Shown here: piece by piece, positions 4,658 to 61,800 of the stretch
Layout: every line of letters starts with the position of its first letter
How positions within the stretch are numbered: the stretch's first letter is position 1
Assembly: GCF_030864355.1 (NCBI RefSeq)
Contig: NC_083400.1
Coordinates: forward strand, 635,001-699,000
From: Cutaneotrichosporon cavernicola
Lineage: Eukaryota; Basidiomycota; Tremellomycetes; Trichosporonales; Trichosporonaceae
Direction of reading: 5' to 3'
DNA: 64,000 nt
Program-made: the position numbers and the translations under genes
Notes under the pieces: generated by a model
What the model was told of the DNA's origin: nothing
What the model saw: only the letters and a program-made list of their open reading frames with translations
The model's database searches: none

Positions 4658-7600
4658 CTACTGGGCTGGTGGGGAGACTGGGCGGCTGACAGCGCGCGAG
4701 GGAGGAACACTGCTCAGACCCGCCTCGTTGACGAGGCTCCCAAAGATGCTCATAGGGTTGCTGAGGAGGGCCTCAGGCGTGTCAAACTCGGCCACCCTTC
4801 CCTGGTCCATGACGAGCACCTTGTCGCTGTCCATGATCGTGTTGATGCGGTGCGCGATGGTGAGCGTCGTCACACCAGCAAAGTCTGGCCCGCGCAGGAT
4901 TGCCTGCACAGCCTCGTCCGTCTCGAGATCGATAGAGCTAGTGGCCTCGTCAAGGACGAGAATCTTCGTGCGCCGCAACAGAGCGCGAGCGAAGCACACC
5001 AGCTGCCTCTGGCCGGCAGAGAGGTTCGAGCCGCCCTCGGCCACCTCGGCATCCAACGTGCCACCCATGTTCGAGATCACGTGGTCCTTGAGGTGGGCCT
5101 GCTCAAGAGCCTGCCAAATCGCTGCATCCGAGGCCTTGTTGGTAGGGTCGATGTTGTTGCGGAGGCTGCCCTCGAAGAGCTGCGGGTCCTGCGGGATGAT
5201 GCTCACCGCACTGCGGAGGTCACGGAGGCCGAGGGTCGCGATATCAATTCCGTCGATGAAGATACGGCCATGTGCCGCCTCGAGGATCCGGAACAGACCA
5301 AGGGTGAGGGACGACTTGCCCGCGCCAGTGCGACCGACGATGCCGACGCGCTCGCCGCCCTGGATCTTAACGCTGACCTCGTTAAGGCAGAGGGCCAGCT
5401 CGGGGCGGTAGCGCATGGAGAAGGCGTCAAACTCGATGTCACCGCGCTCCGGCCACGACGCGGGAGGCTTGGTTTCGGGCACCTCCTCTGCCGCCTCGGA
5501 CGCGAGATTGGCGTAACCGAGGACACGCTCGACCGACACGATGTTCTGCTCGACCTCGGAGGCGGTCCGCACGAGCCAGTTCAGCGAGCCCGTCACGGAG
5601 ATCGTGTAGTTCATGAGCCAGCCTACAAGGGCAGAGTCGACTCTCCCCGTGGTGTAGACCGTCATCGCGACCGAGGCGAGCGCCGTGGAGAACATCAGAC
5701 ACGAACCGAGGAACTCGAGGCGCACAGCGAGCCAGCGGTTGATGCACATTGCGGGCTGGTAACATGCCTGGTTCCGGTCGACACGCGCCTCATTGTTCGC
5801 AATAAAGCGGGATCGCTGGTGGTACGCGCGAATGACGGGGAGGCCCGCGAGAGTCTCGCCGAAGAAGCTGAAGATCGGCGAGCGCGAGATCGCGTCGAGG
5901 CGCTTGAGTTCGCGCGACGTCGCAAGATAGTATCTGCTGTCAGCGAATGGATGAAGCCACGGAATGATGGGGCGCCGCGGGGTGGTAGACCAAAAGGTTG
6001 GTCGGGAGGATTACTCACCTCATCACCATGCGGTAGATGTAGCCTAGTGGGATGAAGACGACGAGGACTTGCGGTGCGCCGATGGCAATGACGACAACGA
6101 CGGACAACACCTGCATGGCGGTGCGGCAGAACTGACCCAGCCCCATTACGAGCACCTCGTCAATGACGAAGATGTCGCGGGTGAAGAGATTGAGAATGCG
6201 ACCGGTGGGCGTCAGTTCGAAGAACGACAGCGGAGCGCGCATGAGGCTCTGGAAGCTGAGGTCGTGCATGATCCTGGCCGCGCGGAGGCCGGAGTAGATC
6301 CGCAAAATGGCAACGGCGAGGACGGACAGCGCACCCTGCGAGAAGCCCGTGACCGCGTATGCGAAGAGATACTTGGCGACCTGGACGTTGGCTTGAGCGG
6401 CCTCGTTGAGCTTGGCCCACAGTCGCAGGATGTAGGTGCTGAGGATACCCATGCCCTGCGAGGAGGCAATGCAGGTCGCGAAGATGACCACGCCCCACCA
6501 GCTGGCGGCGGTCAGGTAGCGGCGGTAGATGTCGCGCTTGACCTGGCCCTTCTCGGAATGTTCCTTGGGCTTGGCGCTCTCGCGGAGGTCACGGAGGGCG
6601 TCGCGTTTCGCTTGGCGCAGGGAGAGAACCGACGCGCGACGAGTTGCGGTCGACGCACGTCGGGCTGCACGGCGCTTGCGCTGGCTATCACTCTCGTCCA
6701 CATCCATAGGCTCGTCAAACTCGTCCTCATCGGAGGTGGCGACGATCGTCGGCGTCACCACGCCGCTCTCCTCACCTCGTGCGGTCATCTTCCCGAGACC
6801 AGTGATGAGCTTGTACAGCTCGCTACTCGGGTCTGCCATGGCGTTGGCGTAGTTGTTGCGCTCAAGAATGATGCCGCGCCGGAGCATGACGATCTGGTCT
6901 GCCTGGGGAAGGACGTTGACTGCGTTCGTGCACAGGATGCGGGCCTTGTTCTTCAGCAGACCGTTTGGGCCAATGACGGCGTCAAAGATGTGTCGGCCCA
7001 CGTGAGCATCCACCGCGGAGAGCGGGTCGTCCAGCAGATAAATGTCGGCACGGGCGTAGCACGCACGCGCGAGGCAAATTCGCGCCTTCTGGCCTCCCGA
7101 GAGGGACACGCCCTTCTCGCCAACCTCGGTCATGTGTCCATCCGGTAGGATCGCGAGATCGGACCGCAAGGCGCATGCGTCCAGCACCATGTCGTAGAAA
7201 ACAGGGTCGAAGCGGTGCCCAAACACAATGTTGTCCTTGACTGTAGCACTGAGAATCCACGAGGTCTGTGAAAAGTACGCGACATCACCGCGCAATGTGA
7301 CGGAACCTTCGGAGCGAGTCATCTCGCCAAGCATCGCGGCGAGGAGCGACGTCTTGCCGTCGCCCACACGGCCGATCACCGCCAACAGCTCGCCCTTCTT
7401 GACACCGATATCGATGTCCTGAAGCGCAGGCTCGAGCGAGTCGTGCACCCAGCGGAACTCTCCGTTCTTGATCGTCACCACCTCCTCGCCGACTCTGGGG
7501 TCACATTCAATGACCTTGCGAGCGTTGGGATCAATCTCCGGAGCCGCGAGGAAGCTCTCGATGCGGTTCACTGAGACCAGCGCCTCGACAATACTGTTGA

Positions 7601-9464
7601 TGATGTTGCTGAAGACGCTCATCGGGAAGGCCAACAGCGTGAACAGCGCCAGTGCGGGGAAGATGATCGCGGCCGTAAGCGGGTCGTCGGCCGTGAACAC
7701 GTAGCTCGAGAACGTTGCGAACGCGACTAAAAACGGCGTAGTGGACCAGAAGAAGTTGGAGCACGACTGCACGATGCCAATCTTCTTCAACATGGTGAGC
7801 TCCATGTTGTTGCGCGCGTCGAACACCTTTGCGGAAAAGGCATTCTCCCAGCCGTACAACTTGATGCTCTTGATATTGTTGAGGATCTCGCTCATGAGGC
7901 GCGTACGCACGTCCTTGATGCTCATGAGCTGGCGCTGGAGCCGTTTGTTCACGCGCGCGAGGTACGTGTTGAGCGGGAGCGAGAAGACCATGACGCCGAC
8001 GCCGACGAATGCCTGCCACCCAACGAGGCGGTAGAGCAGCACAAACGCGAGGATGATCTGGAAGGGCCCAGACCACGCAATGTGCCCATACTGCGCAATG
8101 TCGCCAATGCGCACGGCATCGACGCTCTGGAGGTTGACAATGTCGCCGGATGTGCGGCCCGACCGCTCGCCTTGCGACAGCTTGAGCGACTTGCGGTAGA
8201 TGAGCGTGACGAGACCTGTCCTAACGCGCATTGTCGTCAGGAAGCACCGGTCAAAGTACTGATGCAACAGGCCCGTGGCGATGTTCGCGACGACGAACAT
8301 CAAGATAGCCACTCCGAAGCCGGCGGTGGCCGGAAGCGGATGGGCTGTCTCGTACGAGCCGACGAATAGGAGGAGGAGGCGGAGGAGCTGGGGCTGCGAG
8401 AACGAGAGCAAGTCGTACACGACCTTCATTATGCCCGCAATAATGTACGGTCCGCCATAGGCCTTGAAGATGGCCATCTTGAGGTTCGGCTCAGCCTTCT
8501 TGCCGGCCTTGACGAGCTCCAGCTCGCGTTCCCATGCACGCTGCAAGCGCTCGCTGAGCGCCTCGGCGCTGTCGTCGGGAGGAAGGAGCCACATGTCCTC
8601 TTCGCCGAGGAACTTGTGGGTTCCGAGGTTCAGAAGCGGGGTGAGCCACGAGAAGGTGAGCCGCTGGAAGATGTTGGCAGTGGCGACGGGGCTCTCAACC
8701 TCGTAGTCGTCCTTGCCGACGGGCTCGACGTCGTCCTCCTCGTCCTCGAGGCGAATCTTGCCATCGCGCGAGAACAGTGCGCGCCACCCGCCCCAGTGCT
8801 TGTCGGGGCTATACAGCTCCAGCACGAACGCAAAGAACCCAATGCCAATGGAGGCGAACCAAAGACTCTCACGGGCGATGAGAAGCCGGCCACCGAGCGT
8901 GTGCTCCCCAGTCAGTGCACCAGTGGCCACGGCCGTGCGCACGCACACGGAAGTTACCGCCGCATAGAGTGGGAAGAAGAGCAGGGTGAGCGTGCTACTG
9001 GTGCGGGAGGTGTGGTGGTTCAGCCAGACGAGGTAACTCAGAAGAGCGTAGGTGATGGCGAGGAGGGTGAAGTGGACGAATGCGTACGGGCTGGCTTTGA
9101 TGTGGACCGCGGCGAGGCCAGCGGCAGCGGCTGCCAGGATAGCGGAGAAAGCGAGCAAACTGGACTTGACGCGTGCGACGCGCTCGTTGCGCCAGCCGCG
9201 TACGACCCAATCGAGCGAGCCCTGACCGGTGCGCCGCAGCTTTTGGCGCTGGGTGATAATCTGGAAGATTGCAACGAGGCAAGTCAGAAGTAGGGGAGCA
9301 GGGAGGAGGACAGCGAGCTCGAAGCACTCTGTAAAGTCAAAGTCGCGTGTTGGGTCGAGGATGGGAGGCGGCCAGGAGCACTGCGGCTCGCCGGGGATGG
9401 GTTTCGCAGGATGGGCCGTCGCGCCGTGCGCGGCGGACGCGGCCAGAAACCACTGCGAAGCCAT
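4658..9464 (-). CDS. ABCC/MRP-type ABC transporter
   Basis: A full-length ABC exporter of the MRP/Ycf1 group, which move glutathione conjugates and other organic anions, often into the vacuole. Two exons (9464-6019 and 5933-4658) joined by an 85-nt intron give about 1573 residues. The order is an N-terminal TMD0 with several hydrophobic spans, TMD1, NBD1 (Walker A GRVGDGKTSLL, signature LSGGQKARICLARA, Walker B IYLLDDPLSAVDAH), a charged linker, TMD2 and NBD2 (Walker A GIVGRTGAGKSSL, signature LSAGQRQL, Walker B ILVLDEATSSID). NBD1 has Asp after Walker B where NBD2 has Glu, the usual ABCC asymmetry. The intron splits TMD2 and keeps the frame (YRMVMR then YYLATSRELKRLD). Substrate cannot be assigned. 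The upstream gap carries paired CACGTG sites. Confidence 0.92.
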
Positions 9465-9906
9465 TTCGCCGTGAATGGTAAGAGGTGAAATCGCCTGTCA
9501 ACTGATCGTGTTGACGAGTTTGTGGGCGATTCGGCGAACAAGTTAGAAGTGAGGATGAGTCGGCCGAGGAGTGACGGAATGCCCGGCCCGTCGTCACCGA
9601 TTGAGTGGAGCTAATTCAAAGGGCACACTACACTATTACTTTTTAGCCATCTATCAAATATAATTTTTCTAATGAAACTGTTGGCTGACTAATCTACGCA
9701 CAGACAGGGAAGGTGAAAAGGCCTGGTCACCCGGTCACTCGGCCACTCGGGGAAGCCTCAGCCCCTGTTGGCGATTACACAGATCTCGGAATCAGTTTCA
9801 CGTGGCAACAGTCACGTGAAATTATGTAATGCCTCCACATCCAAGAATTTCTGAATGATCACCATCAACAAGCTTGAGGGCCGAATCACCCACACTACCA
9901 GCTAAC
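9465..9906. promoter_or_regulatory. Bidirectional promoter with paired CACGTG sites
   Basis: A 442-nt gap lies between the divergent ABC transporter and the Nop15/NIFK-like gene. Two E-boxes (CACGTG at 9799-9804 and 9813-9818) form an inverted arrangement, TTTCACGTG-8 nt-CACGTGAAA, at 9796-9821. They lie 86 nt upstream of the NIFK-like ATG. CACGTG is the core site of bHLH factors such as Cbf1. The factor used here is not known. Confidence 0.5.
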
Positions 9907-14321: not shown

Positions 14322-17300
14322 ATGTCGCATCCGGACGAGCGACCTGGCGAGGACGGGCCCATCGATTTTACCCGTCCGCGTACCCCCAGTACCCCAGCAT
14401 CAGACTACGCGTCACCAAGTTATGACCATGGTCTTCCTCTAGATGCTGCTGCACCGAGCGAACCCCAAGACGGCCTGGGTTACGGTCACGCACCACACGC
14501 AATGCTTCCAGAAGAGGAGGGACGGTCTGTGCCACAGATTTCCCTTGCCGAGGCCTCACCTAGACCCCCTCCCCTTGCGCTTGCGAACGCTCGGTCCGTC
14601 TCTTTCCAAAGTGATGGGCCAGAGCCCATGAACCACCCCCTCGTTGACCCTCCTTTACACTCACCAGTGACCCTCGACGCGCCCTCGCCGGCAACCCATG
14701 AGGGGTCCTCCACCTCGATCCTCCTGCCCCAAAATCCTCCCGACTCGGGCGGCGGCTGGCGTGTTCCAGCTGCGATGCTGCGACCTGACACGGCCGATGT
14801 CGACGATGACACCGATTACCCTACGCGGGAGTTTGATGCTGAGGAGCTGTCTGACTCTGGCAAGAGCTCCGAGGCGGAGGACGACGTATTCGCTTTCAAC
14901 CGCCCAACCACGGCGCGCGCCGCCACTGGACCACCCGCAACCACGAGCCGGAAGCGCAAGAGACTGGTCACGACGCCTGGTACTGCGCCGTATGCAGGTA
15001 TCGACATGGCGGGGCACATGCAGGACATCGACTATGACCCAACGCACCCGCCCATCTTCAGTGGCCGATTCAATCTGAACAATGAGCCATTCAACAGATT
15101 CCGACAGTGGAAAGACGAGCAGAATGCCTCGACTTCTGGGACGACGGCCGTAAGCCCGCGGCCTGCAACGCAGATGACGGCAATGAGTGCTGTGTCTTCG
15201 GCACCGCCGCCGACTGGTGACACCGAGGCGGTCGTGCAGACCGCAACCCGCGGACGCCGCTTGAGGCGCGCAACGTCCGACTCGGTGAGCGTCATCTCGA
15301 CCGAGTCCGAGGGCATTGAATCGCTGCGCGACACCCGCCGGCACTCCATGCCCATGACCGAGCTCAGTGGCGACATGACGGTTCCGGACGGCAAGACGAC
15401 GTGGGGCGACGGCATCGGCGGCGCATACAAGGGGACGAGCGACAGCGACGGTGTGACAGGCATGGAGGACTGGGAGGAGGACAGCCCGTATGCCGAAGTG
15501 CGCGCGAGTGTGTCCAACATCGATGACCCCGACATGCCCGCCCTCACGCTCCGGTCCTTCCTACTGGGCATGGTGCTGTGCATGACATGCTCGGCCGGCA
15601 ACACCTTCCTCAGCTTCCGCAACCCCTCCCCACAGTTCCCCATCCTCATCGTGCAGATCATCGCTTACCCGATTGGCAAGTTCTTGGCGTGGTCCCTCCC
15701 ACTCCACGAGTACCACGCTCCCCACTGGCTGGGCGGCTTCCGCTTCAGCCTCAACCCCTGTCCATTCAACGTCAAGGAGCACACGATCATTGTCATGATG
15801 GCCACCGTGGCCATTCTTCCCGCGTACGGACTGTACTCGATCACCTCGCTGGACCTGTTCTACAAGACTCCTCTAGGCATCGGCTTCAACTTCACATACA
15901 TTCTCGCCACCCAGGTGACCGGTCTGACGATCGCAGGTATTGCGCGCCGCTTCGTTGTGTGGCCGGCATCCATGCTGTGGCCAGGTGTGCTCGTCTCCAC
16001 CACCATCCTCAACACATTGCATGCCGACTCGGACATTGGCACTGGCGGCATGAGCCGCCAGCGCTTCTTCATGATCATGTCGATCTTGGCCTTCTTCTAC
16101 TACTTCCTTCCGGGCTACCTGTTCTCCGCCCTGTCATACTTCTCCTACGCGACTTGGATCGCGCCTCGCAACCACGTCGTCAACCAGCTCATGGGTGTCC
16201 GGACAGGGATGGGCATGGGTATCCTCTGCTTCGACTGGGCTCAGATCTCGTGGGTCGGCTCTCCTCTCGCTGCCCCGTGGTGGGCCCAGGTCAACATTGG
16301 CATCGGTTTCCTCATCTTCTACTGGCTTATCACCCCGCTCATGTACTACACCAACGTGAGCAACTAAAGTTTCCCCGCTGACGCCAGGTCTGGTACACGC
16401 GGTTCCTACCAATCTCTGCTGTGCAACCGGCAGACCGCTTCCAGAACGTGTATGACGTCGAAAAGGTCCTCGGAACGGACAACAAGCTTAATCTCACCGC
16501 ATATGCTGCATATTCGCCCGTGTACCTTACGGCGTCATTCACCATGACATACATGCTCGCGTTTGCCCTCACCACTTCGCTTATCGTGTACACGGCCCTC
16601 GTACACGGGCCCCGCCTGTGGCGCATCTTGTGGAGAATGTCGACCGAGCCCGACGACATCCACATGAAGCTCATGAAGAAGTACCGCGAAGTCCCTGATT
16701 GGTGGTATGGCACAATCTTCTTGGCCTGCGTCGCGATGGGCGTTGTAAGCGTCAAAGTGTTCAATACCGGACTCCCCGTCTGGGGCTACTTTGTTGCCGT
16801 TGCCATGGCCTGGACGTACATTGTACCGGTCGCAATCATCTTCGCCATGTCCAATCTCGAGCCGACGTTCAACCTCATTGCCGAGCTGATTCCGGGCTAC
16901 GCCTTCCCCGGCCAGCCAATCCCTGGCATGGTATGTGCAACGTCTCTGTTTCGCTGACGCCAGGTGTTCAAGACCTTTGCCGTTCAGACCCTCGCCGAGT
17001 CGCTCTACTTCACACGCGACATGAAGCTCGGACATTACATGAAGGTCCCGCCGCGCTCCATGTTCATCTGTCAGATGGTTGCTTGCTCGCTCTCGTGCCT
17101 TGTTCAGGTCGGCGTGAAAGAGTGGATGTTCCGCACCATTCCCGACCTCTGCCAACCCGGTCAGCGTGCGCAGCTCATCTGCCAGAACGCGTACACCAGC
17201 TTCACCGCTAGCATCATTTGGTACGTCTCGTGTTGCTATTGTCGCTGACAACAGGGGTCTCATCGGACCTGCCCGACTCTTCTCCAAGGGCGGCATTTAC

Positions 17301-17732
17301 AATCCGCAGTTGTGGATGATGCTCGTCGGCGCTGTTGTGCCAATCCCGTTCTGGCTGTACTGCCGGCGCTACCCCCAGTCGATTGTACGCCACATCAACC
17401 CTTCGATCGTCTTCGCCGTGTGTCTTTCGATCCCTCCTGCATCCGGTATCAACATTGCGTCCTTCCTTGCTGTTGGGTTCGTGTTCCAGTTCTGGATGCG
17501 CCGCTACTACTTTGCGTGGTGGGCACGATACAACTATGTCCTGAGTGCCTCGCTCGACGTTGGCACCATCGCTGGCCTCCTCGTCATCTTCCTCTGCCTC
17601 CGCCTCCCCAAGGCTGATCTCGTGTGGTGGGGCAACACGGTGTACCAGAGGACCCTCGACTGGATGGGCGAGGCACGCGACAATCTCCCCGAAGGCAAGC
17701 TCTCCTTCGGTCCCGACACGTGGAAGCTCTAG
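14322..17732 (+). CDS. OPT-family oligopeptide transporter
   Basis: A proton-coupled oligopeptide transporter of the plasma membrane (Isp4/Opt family). Four exons (14322-16355, 16388-16930, 16964-17220, 17255-17732) with introns of 32-34 nt give 1103 residues. The first roughly 400 residues are disordered, rich in Pro, Ser, Asp and Thr, and much longer than in usual OPT proteins of 750-900 residues. Hydrophobic spans begin at LRSFLLGMVLCMTCSAGNTF and continue to the end. Family motifs include NPCPFNVKEHTIIVMMA, the late SLYFTRDMKLGHYMKVPPR and the C-terminal AKGG-like FSKGGIYNPQLW. The start at 14322 has a good context (caccATG). An in-frame ATG at 14109 would add 71 residues and cannot be excluded. 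Confidence 0.93.
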
Positions 17733-33119: not shown

Positions 33120-33888
33120 CTACCAGCAGGGAGGACCCGAGCCGCCGCAGCCGCCCCACCGGGCCTCGACCTCAGGCTCAGGCTCGGGAATAGCGTCCTT
33201 CTTCCAGCAAGGAGGTCCCGAGCCGCCGCAGCCGCCCCACTGGGGCTCCGCCTCAGGCTCCGGCTCCGGAATAGCGTCCTTCTTCCAGCAAGGAGGACCC
33301 GAGCCGCCGCAGCCGCCCCACTGAGGCTCGGCCTCAGGCTCCGGCTCCGGAATAGCGTCCTTCTTCCAGCAAGGAGGTCCCGAACCGCCACAGCCGCCCC
33401 ACCGGGCCTCGACCTCAGGCTCAGGCTCGGGAATAGCGTCCTTCTTCCAGCAAGGAGGTCCCGAGCCGCCGCAGCCGCCCCACTGGGGCTCGGCCTCGGG
33501 CTCGGCGTCCTTGGTTACAACTATGGTCAGCGGGTACGACCACAGGACTCACCATGCACGACCTCAGGCTCAGGCTCGGGAATAGCGTCCTTCTTCCAGC
33601 AAGGAGGGCCCGAACCGCCGCAGCCGCCCCACCGGGCCTCGACCTCCGGCTCAGGCTCGGGAATAGCGTCCTTCTTCCAGCAAGGAGGTCCCGAGCCGCC
33701 GCAGCCGCCCCACTGGGGTTCGGCCAAAGCGACGGCTTCAGCGTCGGGAGTACGGACGACAAGATTGGCTTGCGTCAGTCACTGTGATGGAGGTTGGGGT
33801 AGGTTGCGTTGAGACGGAATGGAAGAGTGTAGAACTTACCGACGGGCGCCGCGGCAGCGCTGGCAGCGAGGAGAATGAGAAGGCGCAT
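33120..33888 (-). CDS. Secreted repeat peptide precursor 1 (cysteine-containing)
   Basis: A predicted secreted precursor cut into small peptides. Three exons (33888-33840, 33768-33553, 33520-33120) give 221 residues. [14 protein letters not shown] is a short signal peptide. Seven copies of [12 protein letters not shown] follow, all identical in protein. Each except the last is followed by KK and a spacer, [13 protein letters not shown] or [13 protein letters not shown]; most repeats are 27 residues (81 nt) apart. KK is a Kex2-type cleavage site, and the [12 protein letters not shown] pairs are what Ste13-type dipeptidyl aminopeptidases remove, leaving [13 protein letters not shown]. Two cysteines in each unit could form a disulfide ring. 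The last copy ends directly at the stop codon. A TATA element lies about 50 nt upstream of the ATG. The unit plan is that of alpha-factor-like precursors, but the peptide matches none I know. Confidence 0.85.
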
Positions 33889-58197: not shown

Positions 58198-58812
58198 TCA
58201 CCAAATGGGGGGTCCGCTGCCCCAGCTGCCGCGCTGGGCGTCGGCCTCAGCCTCAGCCTCAGCCTCACGCTTCCAAATGGGGGGTCCGCTGCCCCAGTTG
58301 CCGCGCTGGGCATCGGCCTCAGCCTCAGCCTCACGTTTCCAAATGGGGGGTCCGCTGCCCCAGTTGCCACGCTGGGCGTCGGCGTCGGCCTCGGCCTCGG
58401 CATCACGCTTCCAAATGGGGGGTCCGCTGCCCCAGTTGCCGCGCTGGGCGTCGGCATCGGCCTCAGCCTCGGCATCACGCTTCCAAATGGGGGGTCCGCT
58501 GCCCCAGCTGCCGCGCTGGGCGTCGGCCTCAGCCTCACGCTTCCAAATGGGGGGTCCGCTGCCCCAGTTGCCGCGCTGCGCCTCAGCCTCAGCCTCACGC
58601 TTCCAAATGGGGGGACCGCTGCCCCAGTTGCCGCGCTGGGCGTCGGCCTCAGCCTCAGCCTCACGCTTCCAAATGGGGGGTCCGCTGCCCCAGTTGCCGC
58701 GCTGGGCGTCGGCCTCGGGGGCAGCCTCGGGGGCAGCCTCGCGCTTGACGTCGATGGGCGTGGCGACGACGGCGGTCGCCAGAACAAAAAGGGTTGCGAA
58801 GGTAATCTTCAT
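58198..58812 (-). CDS. Secreted repeat peptide precursor 2 (alpha-factor-like layout)
   Basis: A predicted secreted precursor of small peptides. One exon of 204 codons starts at ATG 58812. MKITFATLFVLATAVVATP is a signal peptide, followed by IDVKREAAPEAAPEADAQR. Eight units follow: six GNWGSGPPIW and two GSWGSGPPIW. Each except the last is followed by KR, then EA/DA dipeptides (EAEAEADA and variants), then QR. KR is a classic Kex2 site, and EA/DA pairs are Ste13-type dipeptidase substrates. Processing would give QRGNWGSGPPIW, or GNWGSGPPIW if also cut after QR. The last unit ends at the TGA stop. The layout copies yeast MF-alpha1 precursors although the peptide differs. Its SGPPxW core is shared with precursor 1. 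Confidence 0.88.
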   Translation of the reverse strand: MKITFATLFVLATAVVATPIDVKREAAPEAAPEADAQRGNWGSGPPIWKREAEAEADAQRGNWGSGPPIWKREAEAEAQRGNWGSGPPIWKREAEADAQRGSWGSGPPIWKRDAEAEADADAQRGNWGSGPPIWKRDAEAEADADAQRGNWGSGPPIWKREAEAEADAQRGNWGSGPPIWKREAEAEAEADAQRGSWGSGPPIW

Positions 58813-61800
58813 GGTTTAGGTTGGGTGTTGCGTCACGGGACTGGCGCAAGGTATGTGGCGGAATAGGGTGTGGCGTCGATCCGAACTTTGGGTGGAGGAT
58901 ACACAGATGAAGGAGTAGAATCGTCGACTCTGGTGTTCTTTGGGGGGGAGTGCGCGCACTATTTATGCTGTTCGCTCGTACCCAGACACCCAGACGATGG
59001 GGGTTGTCAAGCAAAAGGAAAGGTTCTCGGGGGCGACGAGGACGAGCCTACGATGCCGAGAGAGAGAGAGAGGGAGGAGCGGGCAGAGTGTTCCTGCTTG
59101 GCCAGTGAAGCTGGCCCCGGCATGGCCTCTGAGCTTAATGGCTGTTCAGAGTGTACGGACGCGCTCATGCCCGGACGCTTAGAGTTTGAGAGTGTGCCGC
59201 ACGTGCCTGTCTCATGAATGAAATCCTCAGGGGCCGTTGCGGCGGTCGACAGAGCTAGAAGCCAGAGGACAGTTGCTCTGGCCAGCGCAGTCAACTTAGA
59301 GAGTGCCTATGAATACGCTCTGGCGCTACCAAATCCACCCAGGATGACGACGCTGGTTAGTCTTTGAGCCCAAGGCGATCCTGGCTATGAGCTGAGCGAG
59401 CCTGGCGTTGTCGTCTTGCATGAGTTGTCTCGCACACTCGGTGGGACTAGGTCCGTCGTTTCCGTCTCTGACACGGAAACCATTTCGTATCTTTCTCGGT
59501 GTGTCTGCCTCTGCCATGTGTGTGAACATGTGCGAATTGCGGGTTGTGGCAGTTGAAGAAGGCACTTCGCGCCCCGCCTGTCGCGACTAACTCGCGTGAA
59601 GTGCTCGTTAACGACGCAGACGCGCTCCATCCTCGCACCGTGACGGCGGGAAAGGCACTGATGAGGGGACTGGTGCTCGATGAGAACGAGATGAACTCAT
59701 CATGAAACGAAATATGGGCTAGGAACGAGCGGCTCACCCCATCTTGGAAAACAATATTAAAGTTTGTTTGTGGGATCCGCTACCAATTTGGCCCTGGAGG
59801 TGCTAGCTTGGTAGCGCGGCCCCTCTCGATGGTACCAGCTGGCTAGCTGGACACACGGACACTTTGTCCAACGTGAATCTGACGCACGAGACGGCTTCCG
59901 GGTGCGTTTTGCGACCCGGAATGTGACTCATACTCGGCTCTCAATCTCCCGGCATCGGGGTGGTGCCCTGCCTTTGTCATGTCGATCCCTGGTACAGTCG
60001 GAGTCATTTGATGCTCCGTGAACCGAGCACCTCGTCCCACTCGGCATATCATCCTCTTCATGGCACCAACTTACACCGACCAGGGAGCTATGCACCGGAG
60101 CACAAACCGGCCAGGCGACTGGGCGTTTGAGTTTAGCGCAGGAACTGGGCCTGCGGCGACAATAGGAAGTGTTTCCACAACAGCCAGAAGGAGGCCAGGA
60201 GTTGGCCGCAAGTAGGACACGGACTGGTTACCACGGCCCGTAGGATGAACCAAGCTGGGAAGGTCGTCCACGCGGCATTCGTCTAGGTCGAGCCAGGGAA
60301 GAGGGTTGAAAGACATATGCCGTAACCGCAGAAAATGACGGCACACACCTCCAACCGATCGCCCGGGACCTCCAAGGAGGCAGATTTGCGCCCGGCAGAT
60401 GTCAGTCATGTGCGTCTGCCATGGCATGGGGACCACATAATACTGTAGATCCTGCTTGAGGTAGACTAACTGAAGAAGTTGTGGGAGAGACTGTCAAAGC
60501 CACAGTTCCTATCCTTAGTCCCAGGCCACGAGGTGTAGAAAAGCCCTGGACAACCTCTGGGCTGCGATCCCTGCCTGGGATTCCTCAAACCTCGTTGTGC
60601 CGTATTGCACTTAAAACAGCATCCGTGCCGCGGCAGATCATTTCCTGATCATGTTCATCCTACTGAACGGTCTGTCACCGAGCGAAGCTTTCCGTGCTCT
60701 GCAACAGAGCTTATCTATATCAGTCAGGTACATTGTTGTCTTGAGGGGCGCGGCCTGATCCGCCAGTTGGCGTCCAGTACTACATGTTCTGGTCGGAACT
60801 ATATCGACATGAAACGGCAGATGTAAAGTTTGGGTTCCGGTTGCCGGCAGGCGTTACGGCGGGCTGGGAAAGCTACATGTAGAGGGTTTGGGGTCGGCGT
60901 CCAGTTGCTGCACATGGCCCGGCCTGCCGTAAAACCAAGTCTATATCGCCTGGCTGATGACGAACCCAGTCCGCTTCATCGGCTGGACCGAGAGTCGGGG
61001 CTGTTGTTCCCCCCCTCCTCCCCCCGCAACGGCCCCGGGAGGCCCAGAGAAGGAGCGGTCCCGATACAAGAAGATGACGCAAGGAGTGGGGCTGGCAGTG
61101 GGCCTAGACGGCGTGGTATTGTTCCTGTCTGCCACACATAGTGAGGAGATCCACGCGATCCTCTATACGCTCTAGACCATGGTTCATCGTTCGACCCAAC
61201 ACCACATCGGAATGAGAATCGGGGTCACATCGGGTCTGGTTGAGTTTACCACTGCCGTACACCGTATCCCGCACTGGAAGAGCTTCAACGCATGGAGCAC
61301 CCCTGGGCGACCTTCAACGTGTCGACAGTCGACTAGTGATTGGGGACCTCTTGCTTGTTTTTGTGACTCCTCGCAGACCTTCTGAGCTCCGTGCGGTCCC
61401 ACAAACTCTCCGGAAATTCGAGGGAATGCCGTCTTGACCTTACTTCTACAAGTATCGTGAACTGTCTGAATCCCAGCTCAAAGATAGGATACTGTACGTG
61501 GATCGAGCCCCTGGGAGATTGGTTGCTCGGGCCCCGGCATATTCTGCAGAAATTGGGCAGAATATCCTCCTCGCACACTGGATACTCTCTCCGCCTGAAC
61601 CTCGCCAGCGGTAACCCACCATCCATCTCGTGGTAGAGAATTGCGACGCCCAGACCCTCGTTCCACACCGACCAGGCCCGAGGCACCCGATGCAGCGGAA
61701 GTGAGGCAACCCCATCTGGACTTTGTCTCCGTGGCTGAGTGAAACGCACTAATGCAAACTGGAGGGGTGGTCGTTCGGTGGGTATTTTGATTCGTGCCAG

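Follow-up and report, generated by a model that had tools for sequence, protein, structure and literature searches.

The precursors of Saccharomyces cerevisiae MF-alpha1 and of the alpha-pheromones of Pezizomycotina combine a signal peptide, KR sites, EA/DA-type spacers and short tandem units, and unmodified peptides that are matured by Kex2 and Ste13 are a hallmark of ascomycete alpha-pheromone signalling. Basidiomycetes are, to our knowledge, not thought to use this type of signalling. The genus Cutaneotrichosporon, from which the DNA studied here originates, belongs to the Trichosporonales (Tremellomycetes, Basidiomycota), and Trichosporon oleaginosus, of which a peptide is discussed below, is a species that we take to be the present Cutaneotrichosporon oleaginosum.

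Kex2-processed repeat proteins (KEPs) with Ste13 signatures were described in Basidiomycota by Le Marquer et al. (2019; PMC6339444), who included QSWGGCGGRGTPCW from T. oleaginosus, stressed its likeness to the alpha-pheromones of Sordariomycetes and proposed that basidiomycete KEPs serve non-sexual signalling via unknown GPCRs. The same article states that Ste13-type spacers are, within the Ascomycota, generally dedicated to alpha-type pheromones, and it treats Rep1 as a basidiomycete KEP that has peptides of 37 residues and lacks a Ste13 signature. In a later survey, KEP type 205 was found to be common to Yarrowia and Cutaneotrichosporon and was counted among the fungal pheromones, and an average of one KEP per strain was given for Tremellomycetes (PMC7329392, 2020). 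KEP peptides have been detected in mushrooms, KEPs of Coprinopsis cinerea have been expressed in Pichia pastoris, and kep knockouts of C. cinerea showed no detectable phenotype, upon which the authors suggested a possible role towards the biotic environment (Vogt et al. 2022; PMC9769878). Another peptide system is that of the tremellomycete Cryptococcus neoformans, in which Qsp1 undergoes extracellular maturation by Pqp1 and is reported to be taken up through Opt1 (PMC7537855). According to PMC6730849, a study that used Trichosporonales genomes of 24 species, sexual reproduction had by 2019 not been observed in Trichosporonales, and with sex unobserved any cell–cell signal in this order would be useful.

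In the window, by which we mean the whole stretch of 64,000 nucleotides of Cutaneotrichosporon cavernicola DNA that was analysed, a single reading frame encodes a precursor of the alpha-factor type, further called the PPIW precursor (Table 1). Its start is unambiguous, since the frame from stop to stop adds just one residue upstream of the ATG. The N-terminus, judged by eye, consists of a lysine, a hydrophobic stretch and VVA, and forms a putative secretion signal, the boundary of which was set with the −3/−1 rule; only five residues lie between this signal and the first KR. Eight cores of the form QRG[N/S]WGSGPPIW follow, six of them reading QRGNWGSGPPIW and two QRGSWGSGPPIW. There are eight KR sites, one ahead of unit 1 and one behind each of units 1–7, which means that a dibasic site is present at all seven unit junctions. 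The spacers from KR to core measure 6–12 residues, are even in length in 8/8 cases and in 8/8 cases split wholly into X-A or X-P dipeptides, and because these are in phase a Ste13-type peptidase could stop exactly before Q-R. The chain ends in GPPIW, directly followed by the stop codon, and a CAAX farnesylation motif is absent. With the MF-alpha1 and Pezizomycotina precursors the PPIW precursor shares KR sites, EA/DA-type spacers, short tandem units and an aromatic C-terminus after P-x, to which the putative signal peptide would be added; it differs from them by another core, by the short stretch of five residues ahead of the first KR, by the lack of any Pfam match (0 families at E <= 0.001, hence no MF_alpha or MF_alpha_N) and by its occurrence in a genome in which STE2 was not detected. 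The first-pass annotation had proposed an alpha-factor-style architecture with a signal, KR sites, EA/DA spacers and eight PPIW units, and this is borne out by the open reading frame of 204 aa and the regularity of its spacers. The newness that it implied is not supported, since Ste13-type KEPs have been on record for Basidiomycota, T. oleaginosus included, since 2019 (PMC6339444): the class of precursor is already published and the PPIW precursor is a further, apparently unannotated, member of it.

Table 1 Coordinates of the precursors and of related features; positions without a locus label refer to the window
Feature	Position	Strand	Basis
PPIW precursor, coding sequence, intronless, 204 aa	58198..58812	(-)	ORF list
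PPIW precursor, stop codon	58198-58200	(-)	ORF list
PPIW precursor, putative signal peptide, residues 1-17, MKITFATLFVLATAVVA	58762..58812	(-)	sequence by eye
PPIW precursor, unit 1 core QRGNWGSGPPIW	58669..58704	(-)	
PPIW precursor, unit 2 core QRGNWGSGPPIW	58603..58638	(-)	
PPIW precursor, unit 3 core QRGNWGSGPPIW	58543..58578	(-)	
PPIW precursor, unit 4 core QRGSWGSGPPIW	58483..58518	(-)	
PPIW precursor, unit 5 core QRGNWGSGPPIW	58411..58446	(-)	
PPIW precursor, unit 6 core QRGNWGSGPPIW	58339..58374	(-)	
PPIW precursor, unit 7 core QRGNWGSGPPIW	58273..58308	(-)	
PPIW precursor, unit 8 core QRGSWGSGPPIW, abuts stop codon	58201..58236	(-)	
TATA-like ATAAAT, ~150 bases ahead of the ATG of the PPIW precursor	58961..58966	(-)	consensus match only
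PPCW precursor, whole gene, seven units	33120-33888	(-)	
PPCW precursor, exon 1, encoding a putative signal peptide	33840..33888	(-)	
PPCW precursor, exon 2, two units	33553..33768	(-)	splice sites placed by hand
PPCW precursor, exon 3, five units and stop	33120..33520	(-)	
OPT oligopeptide transporter gene	15543-17597	(+)	profile match in three pieces
Possible secreted precursor on contig C4, 80 residues	L009:1256-1533 (contig C4 near 182,230-182,510)		one small intron, placed by hand
Secreted-looking protein on contig C5, with FGPPLWKR and TARPPTWKR	L011:1359-1905 (contig C5 near 1,837,730)		
CAAX pheromone frame MSAFTTVFEQPKNYESDDNWYPPALWCTIA-stop, near STE3, convergent	L005:269-361 (contig C3)		

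The architecture of the PPIW precursor is far beyond chance. When the pattern KR[D/E]A[D/E]A[D/E]A was searched for at the DNA level, 8 matches were obtained in the 20.2-Mb genome, 7 of which lie within the PPIW precursor and one in a frame of 24 residues that is not precursor-like, against 0 matches genome-wide for the reversed control. The repeat array reached a Tandem Repeats Finder score of up to 709. Over the eight units, variation is restricted to 3 of the 12 core codon columns, two of these being synonymous and one, the N/S position, non-synonymous. The repeats therefore look recently homogenised, and with core DNA that is so nearly identical the identity of the units alone is no proof of purifying selection. 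The spacer lengths differ in steps of one dipeptide, and since slippage by six bases would give the same steps, the maintained phase agrees with selection without proving it. The near-uniform core DNA would also allow a recent expansion of the repeat without long conservation.

Another precursor that is built along the same lines, which was absent from the first-pass annotation, is located in the same window and on the same strand, 24 kb from the first. In this PPCW precursor the tandem repeats extend over 33123-33722, and splicing by hand, with introns of 71 and 32 bases, gives a product of 221 aa with seven PPCW-type units. In its first 85 residues the spliced model agrees fully with an annotated protein of C. 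cavernicola (P0092); from there on that protein reflects another gene model, in which the complete units number 3 in total, and it does not confirm the second intron. A protein search with the PPCW precursor, in which 8000 candidates were scored, gave at least 3 matches at E <= 10, including proteins from C. cavernicola and C. spelunceum. The C. spelunceum protein (P0093) has four units, three times QWGGCGGNGGPPCW and once QWGGCTGNGGPPCW, with a core that reads GGNGGPPCW or TGNGGPPCW and with an altered spacer. Judged from these sequences, the plan of the PPCW precursor is conserved within the genus and its units and spacers change. Of the matches listed, just one comes from outside Cutaneotrichosporon, namely a pheromone precursor from Fusarium (E 3e-8), which was probably picked up on account of a shared spacer style.

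As far as can be read from its sites, the PPCW precursor fits the processing scheme less well than the PPIW precursor. Its dibasic sites are KK, its first unit has no dibasic site ahead, one junction carries a single K only (VTK, before DAEPEAEP), and in the three R-W units an E-V dipeptide stands ahead of the last E-A, a likely obstacle to full trimming by dipeptides. The two precursors have GSGPPxW in common, and a BLASTP comparison of the PPIW precursor with P0093 gave an E value of 6e-5, to be read as a single comparison between two repeats of biased composition without a shuffle control; common descent of both precursors is plausible on these grounds. The precursor of the T. oleaginosus peptide QSWGGCGGRGTPCW (PMC6339444) comes from the same genus and has the Ste13-type spacer style found in the present window, and counted from the first W, 10 of 12 residues agree with the core of the PPCW precursor. 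The PPIW precursor is unlike this peptide in having another N-terminal part, no cysteines and a PPIW end. KEP type 205 also includes the present genus (PMC7329392).

A protein search with the PPIW precursor itself, in which 8000 candidates were scored, returned at least 91 proteins at E <= 10, none of those listed having GPPxW or a similar tested motif. The best matches listed include ascomycete alpha-factor and pheromone precursors, which probably arise via the KREAEA spacers. A core-word probe, for which 3636 candidates were scored, gave five proteins at E <= 10 (P0092, P0093, P0095, P0096 and P0097), of which P0095, from Podospora, has the look of a pheromone precursor. In these two protein searches (the matches listed and the 3636 candidates, respectively) a counterpart of the PPIW precursor was not found, also not from C. 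cavernicola. Since no C. cavernicola counterpart was returned, the PPIW precursor appears to be unannotated and missed by gene annotation; a gene model that departs strongly from ours may, however, have escaped the search. The annotation of C. cavernicola drew on RNA-seq reads (PMC10568926), and the same study has assemblies of HIS471 and C. spelunceum. Relatives with SGPPxW precursors, which the first-pass annotation had suggested looking for, were thus recovered in part: there is a sister precursor in C. spelunceum, with a changed core, and no relative of the PPIW precursor was found. In the main texts of the literature searched the letters SGPPIW or a PPIW peptide were not found, nor were GSGPPCW and NGGPPCW, and GGCGGRGTPCW occurred in PMC6339444 only.

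The bare PPxW-KR motif is not enriched at the DNA level, with 19 matches in the genome against 12 in the reversed control, and outside the PPIW precursor the numbers are equal (12 versus 12), on which account a general PPxW-KR family defined by the motif alone was rejected. Two of the 12 matches elsewhere are in a short putative precursor on contig C4, two are in one on contig C5 and eight are in frames that are not precursor-like. The matches on C4 read CGWWYPPCWKR and GCTPWGPPCWKR. The same candidate has three different W-ending stretches (GAPIW, GWWYPPCW and TPWGPPCW) before RR or KR. The C5 protein is identical to the annotated C. cavernicola protein P0096, and Cutaneotrichosporon sp. HIS471 has a protein of the same type (P0097) with KL in place of the second KR, which weakens the case for the second C5 peptide. 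At most, the C4 and C5 proteins may be relatives.

Besides the gene, its repeats and its cleavage and trimming sites, the genes for the processing enzymes are present. Profile searches of the genome gave one P_proprotein match, in a kexin frame of which residues 80-436 match the solved Kexin with an E value of 4e-152, and one DPPIV_N match, in a frame of 811 residues that aligns with the solved DPPIV over most of its length, so identifying a DPPIV/Ste13-type peptidase; S10 carboxypeptidases gave 4 matches at two loci. UstYa (DUF3328) gave one match in the whole genome, on another contig and below the cut-off (17.2 of 25 bits), in a search without a control match. With no UstYa over the cut-off, a linear and not a dikaritin-type product is expected, and the dikaritin route is disfavoured, though without a positive control.

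The genes for mating recognition are found elsewhere. Matches to STE3 occur at one place only (C3:2075668-2076587), and the nearby CAAX frame, which ends in CTIA-stop, is probably the mating pheromone of the present strain. Both precursors are on C8, one of the 8 contigs, and are unlinked to STE3. A profile search of the genome for STE2 gave 0 matches at E <= 10, without a positive control, though this method did detect STE3 in the genome; STE2 is likely absent. A genome search for Dicty_CAR receptors, also without a control match, gave 0 matches. The pheromone-response element ACAAAG[AG] has 0 occurrences within the 1 kb that precedes either precursor, 1 upstream of STE3 and 0 in the 268 bases before the CAAX frame, and its density in the window is 0.22 per kb; these counts are uninformative. 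The basidiomycete origin that had been assigned from the letters as probable holds: the PPCW precursor is a Cutaneotrichosporon gene, shared by C. cavernicola and C. spelunceum, and the genome has the STE3/CAAX pair, by which an ascomycete origin is rejected. The proposed separateness from the CAAX mating pheromone agrees with the positions of the STE3 and CAAX genes on C3 and of the PPIW precursor on C8.

From these parts we infer that the PPIW precursor is expressed, that it is actually processed and that its product has a role in signalling. The precursor would enter the ER by means of its putative signal peptide, kexin would cleave behind each KR, the KR left at a C-terminus would be taken off by a Kex1-type carboxypeptidase, and the EA, DA and AP dipeptides would be stripped by a dipeptidyl aminopeptidase of the Ste13 type. 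This may yield up to eight linear 12-mers per chain, possibly with an N-terminal pyroglutamate. The calculated monoisotopic masses are 1353.658 for QRGNWGSGPPIW and 1326.647 for QRGSWGSGPPIW, or 1336.631 and 1309.620, respectively, as pyroglutamate. Secretion and maturation to the 12-mer are, going by the sites and enzyme genes described above, very probable. The PPCW precursor could release a related peptide of the same kind, possibly closed by a disulfide, with a calculated mass of 1290.491, or 1288.475 in the disulfide form. The 12-mer would then most likely serve as a secreted self-signal, involved in the control of density, filamentation or the cell wall, and not as a mating pheromone. 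Self-signalling is favoured because the mating pair of STE3 and the CAAX pheromone is encoded elsewhere, because trimming would leave a single, defined N-terminus, and because the sister precursor keeps its plan across species. That the PPIW precursor is an alpha-pheromone-type KEP with a 12-mer used for self-signalling apart from mating recognition by STE3 is nevertheless an evenly balanced proposition in our judgement.

By analogy with Qsp1, uptake through an OPT transporter could be the route of sensing. Qsp1 is a secreted peptide signal of a tremellomycete that works without surface-receptor action, and an OPT gene is present in the window; it differs from the PPIW precursor in its extracellular maturation by Pqp1 and in that no Kex2 repeat architecture is described for it in the available text of PMC7537855. 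The OPT gene is 15.5 kb from the PPCW precursor and about 40 kb from the PPIW precursor, and of the three pieces in which it was matched, two are interrupted by in-frame stops that probably fall at introns. About five OPT loci are present in the genome, as counted from the positions of 17 matches, and the chance of finding one in a given 64-kb window, about 1.6% as a simple proportion, was noticed post hoc and proves nothing. A large ABC transporter, in two frames and with a match to the N-terminal TMD0 domain, also lies in the window (4658-9497, minus strand).

The main rival to self-signalling is that the peptide, secreted by the same route, is aimed at other organisms, as an antimicrobial, antagonistic or host-directed compound. 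The role in the biotic environment that was suggested after kep knockouts without a detectable phenotype (PMC9769878) would agree with this, as would the difference between the sister cores of C. cavernicola and C. spelunceum, which an arms race could produce as well. On the other hand, the spacers fix the N-terminus in 8/8 cases and are of the Ste13 type that in Ascomycota is generally dedicated to alpha-type pheromones (PMC6339444), and from a short peptide with a single basic residue and without cysteine such activity would not be expected; we consider a target in other organisms unlikely. A mating role, in which the PPIW or PPCW peptide would be an alpha-type pheromone beside or instead of the CAAX pheromone, is still less probable. 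It is suggested by the architecture of the precursors and the C-terminal PxW, by the PCW end and two cysteines of the sister peptide, which resemble Sordariomycete alpha-pheromones (PMC6339444), by the Fusarium pheromone precursor among the matches listed for the PPCW precursor, and by the lack, up to 2019, of any observation of sex in Trichosporonales (PMC6730849). Against it, the search for STE2 gave no matches at E <= 10, without a positive control though with STE3 detected by the same route, and it is the CAAX frame that adjoins STE3, with both precursors unlinked to it on C8.

A structural surface peptide, similar to the Rep1 repellents of Ustilago, would also be made from a basidiomycete KEP, but Rep1 peptides have 37 residues and Rep1 has no Ste13 signature (PMC6339444), whereas the present units are trimmed, have 12 residues and are rich in Gly and Pro, so that amyloid formation seems unlikely; a function of this kind is therefore very improbable. 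We attach equally little likelihood to the view that the PPIW precursor is a non-functional tandem repeat that was kept open by chance, or a slippage artefact. The opposite strand indeed has an open frame of 204 aa as well, the core DNA is near-uniform and no annotated counterpart was returned. Against this stand the ATG followed by a signal-like stretch, the KR at 7/7 junctions, the dipeptide phase in 8/8 spacers and the stop codon right behind the last core, as well as the nearby second precursor of the same plan that is conserved in another species.

A chromosome-scale genome that carries two precursors of this type 24 kb apart, next to a single STE3 locus with a CAAX pheromone frame of its own on another contig, offers a clean setting for studying the role of the peptides and their sensor. 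What basidiomycete precursors of this class do was asked in PMC6339444 (2019). A wider reading, which we regard as doubtful, is that an alpha-factor-style PPxW family provides Cutaneotrichosporon with signalling that is separate from STE3 and CAAX pheromones and proceeds without STE2, through a new receptor or through OPT import. The family would then comprise the PPIW and PPCW precursors and the short one-off precursors on C4 and C5. If this reading is true, an alpha-pheromone precursor would have been kept after loss of its receptor, or this type of signal would have been reinvented independently.
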